A stretch of 32,805 nucleotides of DNA. Origin: Anaerovorax odorimutans (GTDB lineage Bacteria > Bacillota > Clostridia > Peptostreptococcales > JAAYPU01). Made by a program: the position numbers and the translations under genes. Within the stretch, counting starts at the first letter, position 1. The number at the start of each line of letters is the position of its first letter. This document shows, piece after piece, positions 2,928-19,935 of this stretch. Below the pieces are notes generated by a model. The model saw nothing but the letters and a program-made list of their open reading frames with translations. It had not been told where the DNA came from and did no database searches. Where the stretch lies: positions 1 to 32,805 of the forward strand of contig JAENZQ010000035.1 of the NCBI GenBank assembly GCA_016841185.1, in the 5' to 3' direction.

Positions 2928-4268
2928 ATGGTATTTGAAGGATTATCCGAAAAACTTCAGAATACGTTTAAGAAATTAAAAGGAAAAGGAAAACTTTCAG
3001 AAAAAGACATAAATGAAGCCATGAGAGAGGTGAAATTGGCTCTTTTAGAGGCTGACGTTAATTTTAAGGTTGTTAAAAAATTTATTAACAGTATTAAAGA
3101 AAGAGCTGTAGGAGTCGAGGTTCTTGAAAGCCTTACGCCGGCACAGCAGGTTATCAAAATCGTCAATGAGGAAATGACGCAGTTGATGGGCGGAACACAA
3201 AGCAAATTAACCTTTTCCTCCAGAGGGCTTTCGGTTATTTTAATGGCAGGCCTTCAGGGAACCGGTAAAACCACTACCTGTGGAAAACTGGCATTGTATT
3301 TAAAGAAAATGAATAAGAATCCTATTTTAGCAGCCTGTGATGTGTATCGTCCTGCTGCTGTCGATCAGCTGAAGGTGGTAGGAGAAAAATCAGGTGTGCC
3401 TGTTTTTACTATGCCGCAGGGCGCCAAGGCAGAGGAGATTGCAGAAAATGCATTAAAAGCTGCTCAGAAAGAGGGGTATGACGTACTCATCATTGATACA
3501 TCCGGACGCCTTCACATCGATGACCAGTTGATGGATGAATTAGACCGGATAAAAGCATGTGTGATGCCCCATGAGATTCTGTTGGTAGTAGATGCCATGA
3601 CAGGACAGGATGCGGTGAATGCCGCACAGGGCTTTAATGAAAAGCTTGGGATTGACGGGATCATTATGACGAAGCTGGACGGAGATACAAGAGGCGGAGC
3701 AGCGTTATCGGTGAAGGAAGTTACCGGAAAACCCATTAAATTTATAGGTGTTGGAGAAAAAGCAGATGCATTGGAACCATTCTATCCGGATCGAATGACA
3801 TCACGGATTCTCGGAATGGGAGATGTACTGAGCCTGATAGAGAGGGCTCAGGAGAGCTATGATGACAAGAAAGCTAAAGAGCTTGAAAAAAGAATAAGAA
3901 ACCAGGATTTTAATCTGGAGGATTTTTTGGAACAGCTGCAGCAAATGAAGAACATGGGGTCTATGAATCAGATTTTGGAAATGATACCGGGAGTGAATAA
4001 AAAAGCCCTTGGCGGGATGCAATTAGATGAAAAAGAAATTGTTCATATCGAAGCCATTATAAATTCTATGACAAGAAAAGAAAGGTTGAATCCGTCGATT
4101 ATTAACGGAAGCCGAAGAAAAAGGATCGCATCAGGCTGCGGAATGCCTGTAAGCAAGGTAAACAGTGTTCTTAAACAATTTGAACAGACAAAGAAAATGA
4201 TGAAACAATTTTCAAACATGGGCAAATTAAAGAAGAAAGGGAAGTTTGGATTCCCTCCGTTTATGTAA
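2928..4268 (+). CDS. ffh: Signal recognition particle protein Ffh
   Basis: The 446-residue SRP54 GTPase binds signal peptides on ribosomes and delivers them with 6S/4.5S-type SRP RNA to FtsY. The N domain spans about 1-90. The G domain has the P-loop GLQGTGKTTT (108-117), DTSGR (190-194), TKLDGDTRGGA (248-258) and the closing GVGEK. The methionine-rich M domain runs from about 300 to 446, with the RNA-binding element RRKRIASGCG (396-405) and many Met residues in the last 100 positions. The length is normal. The SRP RNA gene is not in the window. Confidence 0.98.
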   Translation: MVFEGLSEKLQNTFKKLKGKGKLSEKDINEAMREVKLALLEADVNFKVVKKFINSIKERAVGVEVLESLTPAQQVIKIVNEEMTQLMGGTQSKLTFSSRGLSVILMAGLQGTGKTTTCGKLALYLKKMNKNPILAACDVYRPAAVDQLKVVGEKSGVPVFTMPQGAKAEEIAENALKAAQKEGYDVLIIDTSGRLHIDDQLMDELDRIKACVMPHEILLVVDAMTGQDAVNAAQGFNEKLGIDGIIMTKLDGDTRGGAALSVKEVTGKPIKFIGVGEKADALEPFYPDRMTSRILGMGDVLSLIERAQESYDDKKAKELEKRIRNQDFNLEDFLEQLQQMKNMGSMNQILEMIPGVNKKALGGMQLDEKEIVHIEAIINSMTRKERLNPSIINGSRRKRIASGCGMPVSKVNSVLKQFEQTKKMMKQFSNMGKLKKKGKFGFPPFM

Positions 4269-13135: not shown

Positions 13136-13483
13136 ATGAATCTGGGAGAAAAGGGAGAAGAAATAGCCAAGAAATATCTGATAAAGAAAGGGTATCGTAT
13201 TATTGAAAGAAACTACCAGACAAAATTTGGGGAAATCGATATTATTGCAAAGAGAAAAGAAAAGTTTTATTTTATAGAAGTTAAAACACGCACCAATAGA
13301 AGTTATGGCCGCCCCATAGATGCCATGACACCATACAAAATAAAGCATCTGATAAGAAGCGTTCAAGTTTATATTGCTAAAAAACAACTGGAGGGAACAG
13401 AGGTGAGCATAGATGTTATTGAAGTGGAAAAGGTCAATGGGCAGTGGATAATCAACCACATAGAAAATGCCATATGGCTATAG
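13136..13483 (+). CDS. yraN: YraN/UPF0102 nuclease-fold protein
   Basis: A 115-residue protein with a restriction-endonuclease-like fold. The motif GEIDIIAKRKEKFYFIEVKTR (37-57) carries the Asp-(X)n-Glu-X-Lys pattern of this nuclease superfamily. N-terminal GEKGEEIAKKYLIKKGYRIIERNY is the family signature. Its biological role is unresolved; it often lies near rnhB, as it broadly does here. The start follows GGGGAG, and a strong terminator follows the stop. Confidence 0.93.
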   Translation: MNLGEKGEEIAKKYLIKKGYRIIERNYQTKFGEIDIIAKRKEKFYFIEVKTRTNRSYGRPIDAMTPYKIKHLIRSVQVYIAKKQLEGTEVSIDVIEVEKVNGQWIINHIENAIWL

Positions 13484-13532
13484 CAGAAGTTGTGCTTCAG
13501 TATAAAAAATGTAATTGGAATGTAAGACTCTT

Positions 13533-13566
13533 AAGCCTTGTGAAAAATTTTCACAAGGCTTTATAA
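13533..13566 (+). terminator. Intrinsic terminator after yraN
   Basis: AAGCCTTGTGAAAA (13533-13546) is complementary to TTTTCACAAGGCTT (13548-13561), followed by TATAATATT. It separates yraN from the chemoreceptor unit. Confidence 0.8.
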
Positions 13567-13615
13567 TATTATAAGCACAAAAAGGTATTAAATTACATTA
13601 ATAGAAATATTTAAT

Positions 13616-13644
13616 TTGTGTAAGTCTTGCTAATGTTGTATAAT
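13616..13644 (+). promoter_or_regulatory. Probable promoter of the chemoreceptor leader
   Basis: TTGTGT (13616-13621), 17 bp, and perfect TATAAT (13639-13644). The start near 13651 implies a leader of about 270 bases before the receptor ATG, containing a terminator-like hairpin and a short ORF. Confidence 0.5.
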
Positions 13645-13734
13645 AATGTCGAATAGTGTCTATATTCATCAAAAATAATTAACACAAGAAAAAGCTCGAG
13701 AGGATGGAAAACGCTTTGGGCCTGAAAAACGGTG

Positions 13735-13759
13735 AACCGGATATCCGGTTGATTTTTTT
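13735..13759 (+). terminator. Terminator-like hairpin inside the receptor leader
   Basis: The perfect palindrome AACCGGATATCCGGTT (13735-13750) folds to a 6-bp stem with loop ATAT, followed two bases later by seven Ts (13753-13759). It lies downstream of the leader promoter and upstream of any known ORF, so it may act as an attenuator. Confidence 0.6.
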
Positions 13760-13786
13760 ATTTATGTATGAAGGGGAGGAATGTGT

Positions 13787-13846
13787 ATGGAAGTAGTAAG
13801 GCAACTTTTTTTTAAACCTTATGATACTATCATAATACTTTTATAA
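13787..13846 (+). CDS. Putative 19-codon leader ORF
   Basis: ATG at 13787 reads MEVVRQLFFKPYDTIIILL and stops at TAA (13844-13846). An excellent ribosome site, AAGGGGAGG (13771-13779), is 7 bases upstream. It lies between the leader hairpin and the chemoreceptor, 76 bp before the receptor start. It may be a regulatory leader peptide or a small hydrophobic peptide. I recognise no family; the support is the ribosome site and its position. Confidence 0.4.
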   Translation: MEVVRQLFFKPYDTIIILL

Positions 13847-13922
13847 AAATAGCCGTCGTTAGCAAAATTATTCTGAATAAGTTGTTGATCCAACTAAAAT
13901 TTAAAACAGAAGGAGACCTGTT

Positions 13923-16715
13923 ATGTTTAATTTTAAAAGCATCAGAACAAAACTTATTATAATTTTCTTTCTATTGATTTTTCTTCCAATGGCTGCTTTG
14001 GGAATAACGATTTATACCATTACCTACCAATCTTTTGAAGATGTAACCGCATCATCGGCCGAAATGATCATGTCCAGTGCCGCCCGCGAAATGGAATCCC
14101 AGTTTGACCACATGAAAAATTATCTGCGAGTACTCAGCACCAATGATAATTTAGTTGAAAGCATTATTACCGGCGATCCGGTAGCGAAAGATAATGCTTA
14201 CAATCTTCTTTCTCAAGAGCAAAAAGGAAATTCCGACCTCATTGAGGGTTTGGTTACTACGGATACAAATGGAATAGCCGTCACCGATTCATCAGGAAAA
14301 GATTCGGCTATAGATTTACATGACCGACAATATGTTCAGGATGCACTTGCCGGAAAGGTTTCCGTGAGCAGCAATGTCCTGACATCTAAAATGTCAGGTG
14401 AAAATATTATTACGGTGGCAATGCCTTTGAAAAAGGATGATACAATCGTCGGTACGCTGGTTGGCGTTATGAAGTTCGAAAAGCTTATAGAATCTATAAA
14501 GGATATTACTATTGGACAAAAAGGGTATGCTTTTATGATTGATAATACCGGACTGATTATTTCACATCCGGTCAAAGAAAAGGTGCTTAGCGAAAATTTA
14601 AGTGAGGCCGGAGGCGAAGGGCTGAAAGAAGTTGTAGCCCATATGACGGCAGGTGAAACTGGATCGGGTATGTATACCTATGAAGGTGAAGAAAAATTTG
14701 TCAGCTATACGCCGGTGGGAAGTTTCAGCCTTGCTTTGGAAGATCCTAAAAGCGATTTCATGGCTACTGCAAATAAGATCGGACTGATCGTTGTTATTCT
14801 GGCCCTTGCTGCAATTGTTGTTGCAATGGGTATTGCATGGGTATTTTCAAGGAGAATGGTTAGAAACATACATAAGCTTCAGTCCTCTGCCGAAAAATTG
14901 GCAAAAGGCAATACGGATGAGGATATTCATATTGAATCTAAAGATGAATTCATGCTTCTTGGTGAGTCATTTAAATCTGTTGCGCTAAATATCAATCAGC
15001 TTATTTCTGAGATACAGATGATGACTCAGAACATTATTGAAGGTAATCTGAATGAGAGAGGAAACCCGGATGAATATGAGGGCGGCTATAAAGCGATTAT
15101 TGAGGGAATCAACGGAGTCATGGATACTATGGCTGCACATATTGATGCAATCCCGATGCCTTTGGCACTCTATGATAAGGAAATGAACATCAAATACGTT
15201 AATAAAGCCGGGACTTCGGCTGTAGGCAAAAGCTCCGAAGAGTTAAGAGGAAAAAATTGCGGCGATATTCTATGCACGGATGTGTGCCATAACGATAAAT
15301 GTCCGGGCAGAAAATCTCTGGCAGAAGGCATCGGATCATCGGCAGAAGCTAAGGTCGGGGAAAATGAAATGCAAATCTTTACGGTGCCGTTTAAAGATCC
15401 TGGCGGCAATATCAAGGGATTATTGGAAATCATTACCGATCAGACGGACATTAAAAAGGCCCAAAGAGAAGCCCGAAGACAGGCTGAGGTCATTGAGAGC
15501 CAGATGACGGTGGCTAAGAAACAGACGGAATATCAAAAGGGAGAAGTTCAGAAGCTTATAACAAATTTAGAGAAGCTTGCTAACGGATATTTGGATATCA
15601 GTACTTCTATCAGTGATTCGGATGAGGATACGGAAGAAATCGCTGAAAATTTCAGAAAGATCAATTCCAGTCTGGAAACCAGTACGAAGGCTATTAAATC
15701 CTATATAGACGAATTATCTGATATCCTTGGGAAGATAGCGGATAAAAACCTTTCAGTAGGGATCGACCGTGAATATATGGGTGATTTTGTTACCCTGAAG
15801 GATTCGATCAATAATATTATTTTGCAGTTGAATGACATATTGGCTGAGTTTAGCGCATCGGCCGAACAGGTAGAAACGGGTTCCTCTCAGGTGGCTTCGG
15901 CCAGTCAGAATCTGTCACAGGGTTCGTCGGAACAGGCGGGATCCGTTGAAGAAATCAGCGCCAGCATAACACAAGTGGCGGAACAAACAAAAGAAAACGC
16001 GGAAAAAGCTGCAGAAGCCAATGATTTATCGGAAAAAGCCAAAAAGGACGCTCAGGACGGCAACAGGCAAATGGAAGGAATGCTGGATGCTATGAATGAT
16101 ATTAAAGAGTCTTCACAGAGCATTTCAAATATCATAAAAGTTATAGATGAAATTGCCTTCCAGACCAATATACTTGCGTTGAATGCCGCAGTGGAAGCAG
16201 CCAGAGCCGGTGAGCACGGCAAAGGATTTGCCGTAGTAGCGGAAGAAGTCAGAAATCTTGCAGCACGAAGTGCAAAAGCTGCAAAAGAAACGACGGAGCT
16301 TATTGATAATTCCAATAATAAAGTGGAAGACGGGTATAGAATCGCCAATGAGACTGCCGGAGCTTTAGAACAGATTGTGGCCGGCATTGCCAATGCTGTT
16401 GAAATTGTAGGAGCCATTGCAGATGCTTCCAATGAACAGGCCAATGCTATCAATGAAATCAACCAGGGCATCGAGCAGATATCACAGGTGACTCAGAGCA
16501 ATACTGCCACAGCAGAAGAAAGTGCTTCGGCAAGCGAAGAGATGGCGGGACAAGCCCAGATGCTGAAAAATATGATTCAGGAATTTAAGTTGAAGGACAG
16601 CGGAAAATCATTTTCGGCAGATACATTCAGCAAAAACAGCACAAGGCTGCAGGCCCCGAAAGAGAATGAAAAGAAAGAGATTGATCTGGATGATGACAGC
16701 TTTGGAAAATATTAA
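13923..16715 (+). CDS. Methyl-accepting chemotaxis protein with dCache, HAMP and Cys-rich PAS
   Basis: A 930-residue membrane receptor. Membrane segment 1 is at about 10-32. A dCache-type ligand domain follows (about 40-280, with [12 protein letters not shown] and [16 protein letters not shown]). Membrane segment 2 is at 285-308, then HAMP (308-360). A PAS domain (about 402-512) carries four cysteines (446, 451, 455, 460), possibly a metal or redox site. A second HAMP-like linker (540-640) leads to the signalling domain, with hairpin tip [20 protein letters not shown] (743-762) and [15 protein letters not shown] (763-777). The ligand is unknown. cheW follows by 39 bp. There is no C-terminal CheR-binding pentapeptide. 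Confidence 0.95.
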
Positions 16716-16754
16716 AACATCCTACATTGAATTAATTTAAGCGAGGTGAAAAAA

Positions 16755-17201
16755 ATGAACCAACATTTGATCTTTTTGATAGAGAACGACTATTACGGGA
16801 TAGATATTGCTTCCGTTAGAGAAATAATTGGAATGCAGAAAATTACAGCCATGCCGGAGCAGCCGGACTATGTGAATGGCGTTATCAATTTAAGGGGTAA
16901 AATCATTCCTACTATTGATGTAAGAACACGTTTTTCAAAAGAAAAGGCGGAATACAACGACAGGACCTGTATTATTGTAGTCGATGTAAAAGAAACCATG
17001 GTGGGATTTATTGTTGACAGTGTGGATGAAGTTATGACTTTATCCGAAGATTGTGTTTCCCATCCGCCTGCATTTAATAAAGACTTCAAAGACAAGTATG
17101 TTAGAGGGATTGCTCAGGCAGAGGAGAAAATCATCATGCTTCTGGACAGTGGGCTGTTGCTTAATGATGAAGAATTGGACAGCGTCAGAGAAATTGCATA
17201 G
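16755..17201 (+). CDS. cheW: Chemotaxis coupling protein CheW
   Basis: A 148-residue SH3-like CheW that links receptors to the CheA kinase in cytoplasmic arrays. The family pattern is FLIENDYYGIDIASVREI near the start, then GVINLRGKIIPTIDVRTRF and IVDSVDEVMTLSEDCV. I use ATG at 16755, 6 bases after GAGGTG; an in-frame GTG at 16746 overlaps that ribosome site. It is 39 bp behind the receptor and probably cotranscribed. No cheA is in the window, so the pair may serve a kinase encoded elsewhere. Confidence 0.95.
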   Translation: MNQHLIFLIENDYYGIDIASVREIIGMQKITAMPEQPDYVNGVINLRGKIIPTIDVRTRFSKEKAEYNDRTCIIVVDVKETMVGFIVDSVDEVMTLSEDCVSHPPAFNKDFKDKYVRGIAQAEEKIIMLLDSGLLLNDEELDSVREIA

Positions 17202-17220
17202 ATCATAGTATATTAATGAA

Positions 17221-17275
17221 TTAAAATACACCAATGGTGATCATTGGTGTATTTTAATTTATCTTTATTTATTTT
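17221..17275. terminator. Bidirectional terminator between cheW and the minus-strand genes
   Basis: A perfect 16-bp stem, TTAAAATACACCAATG (17221-17236) with its complement (17242-17257), loop GTGAT. T-rich flanks lie on the right for the plus strand; the left side is usable for the minus strand. Confidence 0.9.
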
Positions 17276-17293
17276 TCATACTACGAGAAAAGA

Positions 17294-17548
17294 TTATCGG
17301 TATGGGCAAAAAGGCCTGGTTCCGGGGCCGTATCCCGGTCTCGGGCCATACCCCCGGCCAGGGTTGAACCAGGGTCCGAGGCCTGGACGAAAACCGGGGC
17401 CAGGCCGAAAGCCGGGTCTAAACCAAGGCCCATAGCCGGGGCCGAACCCGGGGCCAGGAAATCTATCCCAGTCATCTCTATCGTCATCCCAATCCCAGTC
17501 CGGATCTCTATAGGGTCTTCTATATAAATCATCATCATAAGGACACAT
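17294..17548 (-). CDS. Small Asp-rich, Gly/Pro/Arg-rich protein (coat-like)
   Basis: I do not recognise the family. The 84-residue protein has an acidic head (CPYDDD at 2-7, WDWDDDRDDWDR at 18-29) and a low-complexity tail of GPGF/RPG units from 30 to 80, with GPWF twice (40-43 and 58-61). CPY motifs stand at both ends (2-4 and 81-83). The region is far more GC-rich than the rest of the window. The start is supported by AAAGGTG upstream and a sigma-E-like promoter 33 bp away, suggesting spore-coat or surface use. The GC-rich tract also opens frames on both strands; this one has the ribosome site. Confidence 0.65.
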   Translation of the reverse strand: MCPYDDDLYRRPYRDPDWDWDDDRDDWDRFPGPGFGPGYGPWFRPGFRPGPGFRPGLGPWFNPGRGYGPRPGYGPGTRPFCPYR

Positions 17549-17580
17549 TATTATCTCACACCTTTTTTTAGTTATATAAC

Positions 17581-17607
17581 ATATTATGCTTATAAAAGCT
17601 TAATATG
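17581..17607 (-). promoter_or_regulatory. Sigma-E-like promoter of the small Gly/Pro protein
   Basis: On the minus strand CATATT (17607-17602), 13 bp, then CATAATAT (17588-17581), close to sigma-E elements (ATATT and CATACAAT). It lies within an imperfect hairpin (17579-17608). The expected start is about 27 bases before the gene. Confidence 0.45.
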
Positions 17608-17659
17608 TGCCTATCAGATGGATTTATCATTATAGCGGAATAAACGGGCAAATAAAAAG

Positions 17660-19492
17660 TCATCGTAAATTATAAATATCGGAAAATTCTATATTGATTT
17701 TTTCAATATTATTGTACTCCTTAGGTTCGTCCTTTAATACAATTTCTTCCTCGGATACTTTCTTTGAGGGGATTTCGATGATAAATTCAGTTCCCTTTCC
17801 AAATTTGCTTTTCACATTTATTATACCATCATGTAATTCTACCAAAGATTTAACCAGTGAAAGGCCGATGCCGCTTCCTTCATTGACTTTGTTTAATTTT
17901 TTATCCGCTTGCCTGAATCGGTCAAAAATAAGAGCGCACTTTTCTTCCGGAATACCTTTGCCGGTGTCTTTGACAGATATCAATACTACGGCTTGTTTCT
18001 CCTTTATTTTGACTTTTATCGTGCCCCCCGGGTTTGTGAATTTAATGGCATTGGATAAAAGATTTAAAATGATTCGTTCAATACTGTCTAAATCACAGGC
18101 AATTATTTTTTCTTCTACATTTGTGTCAAAAATAAGTTCAATCCCCTTATTTTTTATATAGTCCGATACCGATAAAGTGATGTTTTCTACCACGCTTATG
18201 ATATCATGATTTTGAAGTTTGATTTCGAAAAAACCGGAATCGATTTTAGTAATATCGATCATGTTGTTAATCAGCCTGAGCTGCCTGTAACAATTTTGTC
18301 TCATGATACCATAGAGCTTGGTGAGATTCTTTTTTTCATGACCGGTATCGCTTTCCAAAAGCTGCAGAGTGCTCATGATAACGTTTAAAGGGGTTCGAAG
18401 CTCATGGGAAAGATTACTGAAAAAAACATTTTTAAGTTCATCTATAGCAAGGGTTTCGCTTATGAGTTTTTTCTGTTTTTCATTATCCAGCCGTAGTTCC
18501 ATTTCTATTTTTTGCGGAGTTACATCTCTGATGATGAGAAGTTGGGAATCTTTCTCTTCAAAAGAAAAAGGCATTGATGTAATATCCACATAAATTTTGG
18601 AGCCGTCCGGACGGATGATTTCGGTTTCCTCATTTGGATTAGCCGGATTAAAGTATAATAACTCATCGATTGACTTCCCTATTAGAGATTCCATACTTTC
18701 CATCTGAAATAAATTGAGCCCTGCCGTATTAGAAAAAAGTATTTTGCCTTGATAGATAATGATGATCGTAAAAGGAGAGAGCTCTATAAGTTTTTTAAGT
18801 TCTTTATTGGTACCGTGTATTCTTTCATTGGCCAACAGAGGATGACCTGTATATTGTAATATTATTTCCGGCATGTCTTTAGGGGCAGAAATGAAATCGC
18901 AGATATGTGCTGAAATAACGCTGTTGGGCATACTGTTGAATTTTGCAGTCCCGGCATCCTGGGCCAGAATAACGCCTCCGGATTCTTTTATGGCTCGGCA
19001 TCCCAAAGTGCCGTCGCTGCCTGTACCTGACAATATGATGCCAATGGCCTTTTTATGTGCGTCTTCAGCAAGAGATTTAAAAAAGGAATTAATTAAAAAG
19101 CTGGGTTTTTTTAAGGATTGATGTTCTTTCAGATACAGACGATTTTTTGAAATTGTAACAGTATATTTAGGAAGATTCAGATAAATACATCCCGGTTCAA
19201 CGGGCATGCCGTTTTGTATCTTGAAGATTTTCATTTTGGTAATCTGGGACAAAATATCCTGTGTAAAGCTGTTATAATCGGGAGATAAATGATGAATTAC
19301 TATAAAAACCATATTATTATCGGGAGGCATATTTTTGAAAAAATCTTTCAGTGCATCAAGACCTCCGGCAGAAGTACCGATTCCAACAATAAATGAATCC
19401 TTGTTGTTTTTATTTGAGATATTTTTTTTATATTCTGGTTCTATGTGAATACAGGAATTATTATTAGGGAAATTGCTTTTTCTCATCATCAT
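17660..19492 (-). CDS. CheB methylesterase-PAS-histidine kinase fusion
   Basis: A 610-residue cytoplasmic protein. Residues 33-215 are a CheB catalytic domain with Ser41 in GTSAGG, His68 in IHHLSP and Asp160 in SGTGSDGT as triad. A PAS domain follows (about 235-335). A histidine kinase occupies 345-575: His363 in SHELRTP, N box NLLSNAIKFT (477-486), DTGKGI (509-514) and GSGIGLSL (539-546). The usual CheB receiver and the CheR domain of common fusions are absent. It may demethylate receptors under kinase or PAS control. It is divergent from yifB and convergent with the receptor-cheW unit. Start: ATG at 19492 after AGGAG. Confidence 0.9.
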   Translation of the reverse strand: MMMRKSNFPNNNSCIHIEPEYKKNISNKNNKDSFIVGIGTSAGGLDALKDFFKNMPPDNNMVFIVIHHLSPDYNSFTQDILSQITKMKIFKIQNGMPVEPGCIYLNLPKYTVTISKNRLYLKEHQSLKKPSFLINSFFKSLAEDAHKKAIGIILSGTGSDGTLGCRAIKESGGVILAQDAGTAKFNSMPNSVISAHICDFISAPKDMPEIILQYTGHPLLANERIHGTNKELKKLIELSPFTIIIIYQGKILFSNTAGLNLFQMESMESLIGKSIDELLYFNPANPNEETEIIRPDGSKIYVDITSMPFSFEEKDSQLLIIRDVTPQKIEMELRLDNEKQKKLISETLAIDELKNVFFSNLSHELRTPLNVIMSTLQLLESDTGHEKKNLTKLYGIMRQNCYRQLRLINNMIDITKIDSGFFEIKLQNHDIISVVENITLSVSDYIKNKGIELIFDTNVEEKIIACDLDSIERIILNLLSNAIKFTNPGGTIKVKIKEKQAVVLISVKDTGKGIPEEKCALIFDRFRQADKKLNKVNEGSGIGLSLVKSLVELHDGIINVKSKFGKGTEFIIEIPSKKVSEEEIVLKDEPKEYNNIEKINIEFSDIYNLR

Positions 19493-19935
19493 TAATCACT
19501 CCTATAGTTGAAATAATGTTTCTGTAAAAAAAGACTCTGGAGAAATGTAGCAATTAGCATTCTTTTCCATATAAATGATACTCTGAAAAGTGACATAATG
19601 CAATCTATTATGACAGGGATAAATAGGTTTATAATTGGCTATCTGAAGCTGAACTGCCTGAAATCTTAATAATCACGCATTATTAAATTATTGCAAAATA
19701 CTTTTATATTTTGTAAAAATGTAAATAATTTGTAATATTTTTGCAGGAAATTCTGATAAAATAGCGAATAGTAAGTAATAGGTGAGCAGTGGTCAAGAGT
19801 AAAAAAGATAAGAGAATAATAAATAATAGATAAGAGATTGGTGAATTTTGTTACCAAAATTTTTATTTTAAAACTCATACTCATACTTTTACTTTATAAA
19901 TCTTAAATCATAAATCTTGACTGGGGGTATTTATT
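19493..19935. repeat. Gene-free spacer with heptamer tracts between the CheB-kinase and yifB
   Basis: It has GATAAGA-type units at 19806-19839 and three tandem heptamers (ATAAATC, TTAAATC, ATAAATC) at 19896-19916, just before yifB. A weak CodY-like sequence (11 of 15) is at 19577-19591. A promoter is possible at TGATAAAAT (19754-19762) but not convincing. Confidence 0.55.

Follow-up and report, generated by a model that had tools for sequence, protein, structure and literature searches.

A chemoreceptor leader in Anaerovorax odorimutans that resembles a decayed c-di-GMP-I riboswitch

The window, i.e. the whole stretch of 32,805 nucleotides analyzed here, corresponds to contig C50, one of 88 contigs in a genome of 3.56 Mb, and the features described below lie on its + strand unless stated otherwise. 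The leader in question precedes a gene for a 930-aa chemoreceptor (pos. 13923–16715) with dCache_1, HAMP, PAS_4, HAMP_2 and MCPsignal domains, and the gene directly after the chemoreceptor encodes CheW (pos. 16746–17201). A Pfam scan identified a gene on the − strand (pos. 17660–19492) as a fusion of CheB methylesterase, PAS and histidine kinase (HisKA, HATPase), and detected no CheR domain in it. Together, the receptor, cheW and CheB–PAS–HisKA–HATPase genes fill 6.5 kb (pos. 13484–19935) between yraN and comM. Eleven of the 80 available ComM loci were examined; the yraN match ends 18–204 nt upstream of comM in ten of them, and yraN was not found in the other (L129). Since yraN and comM are close neighbors in 10/11 ComM loci and are 6.5 kb apart here, the receptor–cheW–CheB kinase block looks like a lineage-specific insertion.

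Upstream of the leader, yraN ends at 13483, in agreement with the statement in the initial annotation that no gene stands before the terminator; beyond it lies an inverted repeat (pos. 13533–13562). Both this repeat and a putative promoter (pos. 13616–13644) were read from the sequence; the latter consists of TTGTGT (13616–13621), a 17-nt spacer and TATAAT (13639–13644). The −35-side hexamer is weak (3/6 consensus matches), and the promoter is missing from the promoter scan list because this value is under the scan minimum. With the start at 13651 estimated from the position of the −10 hexamer, the leader RNA (pos. 13651–13759) ends in the T-run of an intrinsic terminator (pos. 13735–13759), composed of the hairpin AACCGG-ATAT-CCGGTT (13735–13750), GA and T7 (13753–13759). 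The terminator scan revealed two terminator-like sites between 13400 and 14000, which are a single palindrome seen on both strands, compared with 0.2 ± 0.5 in shuffles, and the six terminator pairs have computed probabilities of 0.97–0.999 in the 13651–13759 RNA. The fold energy of the 115-nt leader as a whole was unremarkable (z −0.62; 50/200 shuffles as good). The description of the leader as structured is thus valid for the terminator hairpin, which exceeds chance, and not for the whole 115-nt leader. TATAAT, the CCGG hairpin, T7, the Shine-Dalgarno-like box AAGGGGAGG (pos. 13771–13779, downstream of the T-run) and a 19-codon ORF, all named in the initial annotation, were found at their positions. 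Its label "unclassified" holds for Rfam, which gave no match at gathering scores and nothing credible up to E 10; specifically, no RF01051 (c-di-GMP-I, also GEMM-I) match to the leader appeared at the gathering threshold, or when permissive filters were used and matches up to E 10 admitted.

Analysis of the other chemoreceptor genes in the same genome revealed 12 MCPsignal matches, and ten receptor leaders besides that of the window were compared (the twelfth match, on C22, yielded no ORF resembling a receptor gene). RF01051 produced 13 rows up to E 10 in this genome, 11 of them over the cut-off; three of the latter (C20a, C20b and C20c, on contig C20) lie directly before receptor genes, each with a T-run. 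A family genome (G002) also has one such leader in intact form, and the pattern of the short-P3 form was found in 18/386 genomes of the order. C20a, C20b, C20c and the G002 leader served as intact references, and a covariance model (R1) was built from these four with the window copy left out; 7/19 of its pairs are changed on both sides. Among the ten other leaders of the genome, three are intact and two look eroded (C20d; C24 in locus L046), and no R1 match up to E 10 was obtained in the remaining five. By total score, the closest paralogue of the window receptor in its own genome is that of C20a (59% identity over residues 298–930), and the receptors of C20b and of C24 are 78% and 71% identical to it over residues 579–930 and 579–927, respectively. 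C20a and C20b, whose receptors are close paralogues, both carry intact leaders; the C24 receptor, also close over this part, has an eroded-looking one, which counts against a link between close paralogues and the intact switch. An operator-like inverted repeat, ATGCAACATATTAAGTATATTGTTGCAT, is located upstream of both the C20a and the C20b leader (L044). Elsewhere in the genome, four c-di-GMP-I riboswitches stand in series as two close pairs (G000:C14:50224–50859; L052, L053, L055, L056), and this series runs directly into an ORF for a protein that, judged by eye, looks secreted.

Comparison of the window leader with the four intact leaders revealed a likeness along its length that exceeds chance, although the covariance model supports it marginally and its strength is modest once the T-run is removed. 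Pairwise local alignments scored 170–189 versus shuffle means of 101–109, and 0/500 shuffles reached any of these scores; the summed score was 502 versus a shuffle mean of 271 (sd 34), with 0/2000 shuffles as high. When all 2180 tiles of the window on both strands were ranked, the tiles covering the leader came first and second. The T-run contributes to this result: after its removal, 29/2000 shuffles reached the score of the leader, so that the aptamer body alone gives modest support. To control for similarity due to nothing more than a shared hairpin and T-run, we also scored 191 stretches with a terminator, taken from the loci collected in this analysis, after dropping four loci that repeat the window. 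The window leader ranked second (501; next, 425), and the first was a real c-di-GMP-I riboswitch from another genome.

With R1 and filters off, the leader was the best match in the window (pos. 13669–13768; 21.7 bits, E 0.0074), followed by an 18.8-bit match inside cheW that must be due to chance. In 91 kb of sequence, it ranked fifth (E 0.02), behind three training leaders and C20d, and in 1.42 Mb (the window plus the 80 ComM loci) it was the top match at 21.8 bits and E 0.31, with the next stretch at 20.6 bits. By itself, the R1 score is marginal; the place, the gene and the register of the T-run add support. An unrelated intrinsic attenuator or short RNA that happens to look like a c-di-GMP-I leader would account for this marginal score, for the modest similarity left without the T-run, for the silence of Rfam and for a whole-leader fold no better than shuffles. 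We nevertheless regard such a coincidence as unlikely, since the leader still ranks second of 191 against controls matched for hairpin and T-run, the type of gene and the place are right, and the closest receptor paralogues carry the intact switch.

The alignments place the elements of the c-di-GMP-I aptamer along the leader and reveal which of them have changed. A possible 5′ arm of an A/T-rich P1, AATTAAC (pos. 13677–13683), can form 7/7 standard pairs by eye with GTTGATT (13748–13754). In the R1 alignment, AAGAAAAA (pos. 13686–13693) replaces the conserved first pocket stretch GGCAAACC, and the base aligned with G20 is A; this equivalent was placed by counting 27 nt back from A47, with residue names as in PMC4744006, and is therefore a probable assignment. 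Both the leader alignments and R1 put GAGA (pos. 13698–13701) where P2 would carry its GAAA tetraloop, so that a GNRA-type loop sequence is in position, but the P2 helix beneath it is lost: only 1/6 pairs is kept, five 3′-arm bases are deleted in the R1 alignment and 5/6 stem pairs are unformed. The second pocket stretch may have fared better. GATGGAAAAC (pos. 13703–13712) stands where GACGCAAAAC belongs, and GAUGGAAAAC, opposite GACGCAAAAC in the R1 alignment, keeps 8/10 bases, among them the A47-equivalent, which would mean that the pocket is not wholly lost; the pairwise alignments instead split this stretch with gaps. The P3-equivalent (pos. 13718–13738) pairs GGGCC (13718–13722) with GGT (13731–13733) and CC (13737–13738) in 5/5 standard pairs, though it overlaps the 5′ arm of the terminator and is outcompeted by it in the computed fold.

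Mutation of G20 lowered binding 30,000-fold in Vc2, and the equivalent change in Vc1 is reported not to abolish binding fully (PMC4744006). Since P2 is gone in addition to the change at the G20-equivalent, binding of c-di-GMP by the window copy seems unlikely on this alignment. Substitution of G20 can also alter the choice of ligand, in that a G20A class I mutant is able to bind cGAMP (PMC7288161) and a G20A/C92U mutant c-di-AMP (PMC9049102). The leader might on these grounds be a functional variant riboswitch, with the GEMM-I scaffold remodeled for a different ligand and still in control of the terminator; the A at the G20-equivalent, the second pocket stretch as retained in the R1 alignment with its A47-equivalent, the kept P3 pairs and the improved terminator all fit such a variant. 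This appears distinctly improbable given that P2 retains a single pair and lacks five bases, that P1 and P3 have negligible pairing probability beside the terminator and that no orthologue was present in the genomes searched.

Computed folds also distinguish the window copy from its relatives at the 3′ end. In the three intact leaders that were folded (C20a, C20c and G002), P1 is continuous with the U-run, and none of them has the GC-rich hairpin that precedes the T-run in the window copy. A 30-nt 3′ tail of the window copy has a fold energy of −10.7 kcal/mol, versus −2.2, 0 and 0 for the 32-nt tails of these three leaders. In the full window leader, the drawn P1 and P3 have probabilities of at most 0.007 and 0.005, respectively. 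As computed, the stop signal of the window would be independent of the aptamer fold, because the terminator pairs reach 0.97–0.999, P1 and P3 are negligible and the tail folds alone.

The two eroded-looking leaders of the same genome were compared in the same way. The C20d leader (− strand of L044, locus pos. 3836–3931) scored 55.4 bits with R1, and a direct scan of it yielded no RF01051 match up to E 10. A receptor in the family genome (G002:C6; L101), whose best match in the window's own genome is the C20d receptor (70% identity over 353 residues), carries an intact riboswitch. To judge from the sequences, a second leader of this genome, that of C20d, thus seems to have eroded, and its G002 counterpart is intact. 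The C24 leader gave no RF01051 match and matched R1 weakly at the expected position (17.8 bits, E 0.21); its T-run is interrupted, and another T7 lies some bases further on. Alignment of the window leader with C20d was not significant (126/500 shuffles as good), and that with C24 was weak (17/500).

Searches for orthologous leaders covered the genome itself, the family and the order. The leader DNA had no match in its own genome beyond itself, and among the three family genomes (E 0.001) only its own matched, with none in the two others. In the order, 365/393 genomes matched at E 1, with two candidates scored per genome, and the matches listed outside the leader's own locus were short (about 17–43 bases). 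The receptor N-terminus (306 aa) matched 152/386 genomes of the order, its own included, at E 1e-10 with at most five candidates scored per genome; among the matches listed, the best outside its own genome had 37% identity, and 0/23 candidate stretches in genome contigs were confirmed. Of 29 homologue loci (L064–L092), 20 were scanned with Rfam, and two of these have a c-di-GMP-I hit on the gene strand, about 650–700 bases before the receptor match. Ten of the 13 genomes reached through ComM loci contained a receptor match at E 1e-20 (best, 37%), and the nearest genome by ComM (83%; MAG Soudan_22) contained none at that threshold. Searches of this scope therefore revealed no orthologous leader, and hence no set of conserved homologues with covariation of the kind that defines a new class. 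There is a slender chance that the window leader, perhaps with those of C20d and C24, marks the beginnings of a new class of switch built on the GEMM-I scaffold: the c-di-GMP pocket would have changed, the terminator would have been rebuilt and another ligand, or translation, would have taken over control, leaving paralogous chemoreceptors of the same cell to answer different signals.

Two short ORFs, one after the terminator and one across it, were considered. The 19-codon ORF MEVVRQLFFKPYDTIIILL (pos. 13787–13846; 21 codons from an in-frame ATG at 13781) has GGAGG 7 nt upstream of the ATG at 13787, and a 30-codon ORF (pos. 13704–13796) runs through the terminator hairpin; on inspection, the purine box of the latter touches its ATG, which makes its translation doubtful. 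The 19-codon ORF starts after the terminator and is thus unable to control it, and it has no counterpart in the six related leaders. A Shine-Dalgarno-like box within about 25 nt of the T-run is common to the window copy and 6/6 related leaders (the box patterns were picked after the leaders had been seen), and ATG, GTG or TTG within 14 nt after the box was present in the window copy only (0/6 related leaders); the box of C20a overlaps an ATG, from which a frame of 2 codons starts. STAB-SD elements are described as interacting with 16S rRNA and stabilizing mRNA without directing initiation (PMC4113751), and the resemblance of the box after the T-run to such a stabilizer is a lead by analogy. 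A peptide-controlled leader, as proposed initially, would have translation of a short ORF set readthrough or receptor translation, with the 19/21-codon and the 30-codon ORF as candidates; it can draw on the GGAGG ahead of 13787 and on the overlap of the 30-codon ORF with the terminator, but it is hardly credible with the one ORF behind the terminator and not shared by relatives, no start codon behind the box in any of these, and the other ORF starting against its own purine box.

Taken together, we consider it probable, at about 0.65, that the window leader is a decayed c-di-GMP-I leader that would now act as a ligand-blind partial terminator. Of the earlier reading, a terminator leader of riboswitch type in front of a chemoreceptor gene stands; the suggestion of a new class is probably wrong, given the resemblance to an eroded c-di-GMP-I (GEMM-I) leader. 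The stretch at about 13651–13759 would descend from the type of c-di-GMP-I riboswitch leader that precedes several chemoreceptor genes here. In the intact relatives, P1 leads into the U-run without a gap, so that a ligand-stabilized P1 should stop transcription and hence act as an off switch. The window copy appears to have lost its P2 helix and first pocket stretch through decay, so that binding of c-di-GMP should be poor, and a self-contained GC-rich hairpin would have arisen before the same T-run. This hairpin and T-run would be expected to terminate a fraction of the transcripts at any c-di-GMP level, and the resulting ligand-independent partial terminator would most likely set the basal level of the receptor–cheW message. 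The likeness to the intact leaders, the loss of conserved parts and the additional hairpin are apparent from the sequence itself. The gain of a better terminator could mean that the leader has a selected function, since an unselected leader should tend to lose its terminator and this one gained a better one.

Intact and eroded versions of one type of chemoreceptor leader thus coexist in a single genome, and for one of the eroded versions the intact counterpart is present in a family genome; together, these make it directly testable how a receptor family loses riboswitch control, including which part of a riboswitch decays first and whether the freed terminator stays useful. The case also cautions against taking an orphan terminator leader for a new class, since it may be a known switch that has worn down. 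Eroded c-di-GMP-I leaders of chemoreceptor genes were not described in the open-licence literature searched, including the excerpted text of PMC12564702, which is weak evidence of absence.

Among known systems, the ghost aptamers of glycine riboswitches are likewise degraded aptamers retained in a leader, but they are reported to adjoin a working aptamer and serve its structure (PMC6944388), whereas no working aptamer was found here. Clostridioides difficile is reported to have 12 copies of class I riboswitches (Cd1 etc.), of which seven are functional and terminate transcription at high c-di-GMP, and the non-functional ones are less well conserved (PMC6366702); these are experimentally tested off switches, whereas the window leader is known from sequence only. 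The junction of P1 with the U-run in the intact leaders would fit the same off logic. Bc1, the c-di-GMP-I riboswitch before mcpE in Bacillus thuringiensis, is, like the window leader, a riboswitch-type leader with intrinsic termination in front of a chemoreceptor gene; it differs in having two terminators and an aptamer for which structure probing showed a response, and it reportedly has little effect on its genes (PMC11218506). Compared with the c-di-GMP-I leaders C20a, C20b and C20c (RF01051), the window leader has lost P2 and the GGCAAACC stretch, lacks an Rfam match and has, as its predicted terminator, a GC-rich hairpin of its own in place of P1 plus the U-run, but it shares with them the type of gene, the length, the P3 pairs, the place of the tetraloop, the T-run and the purine box that follows it, and in the R1 alignment it may also share most of the second pocket stretch.
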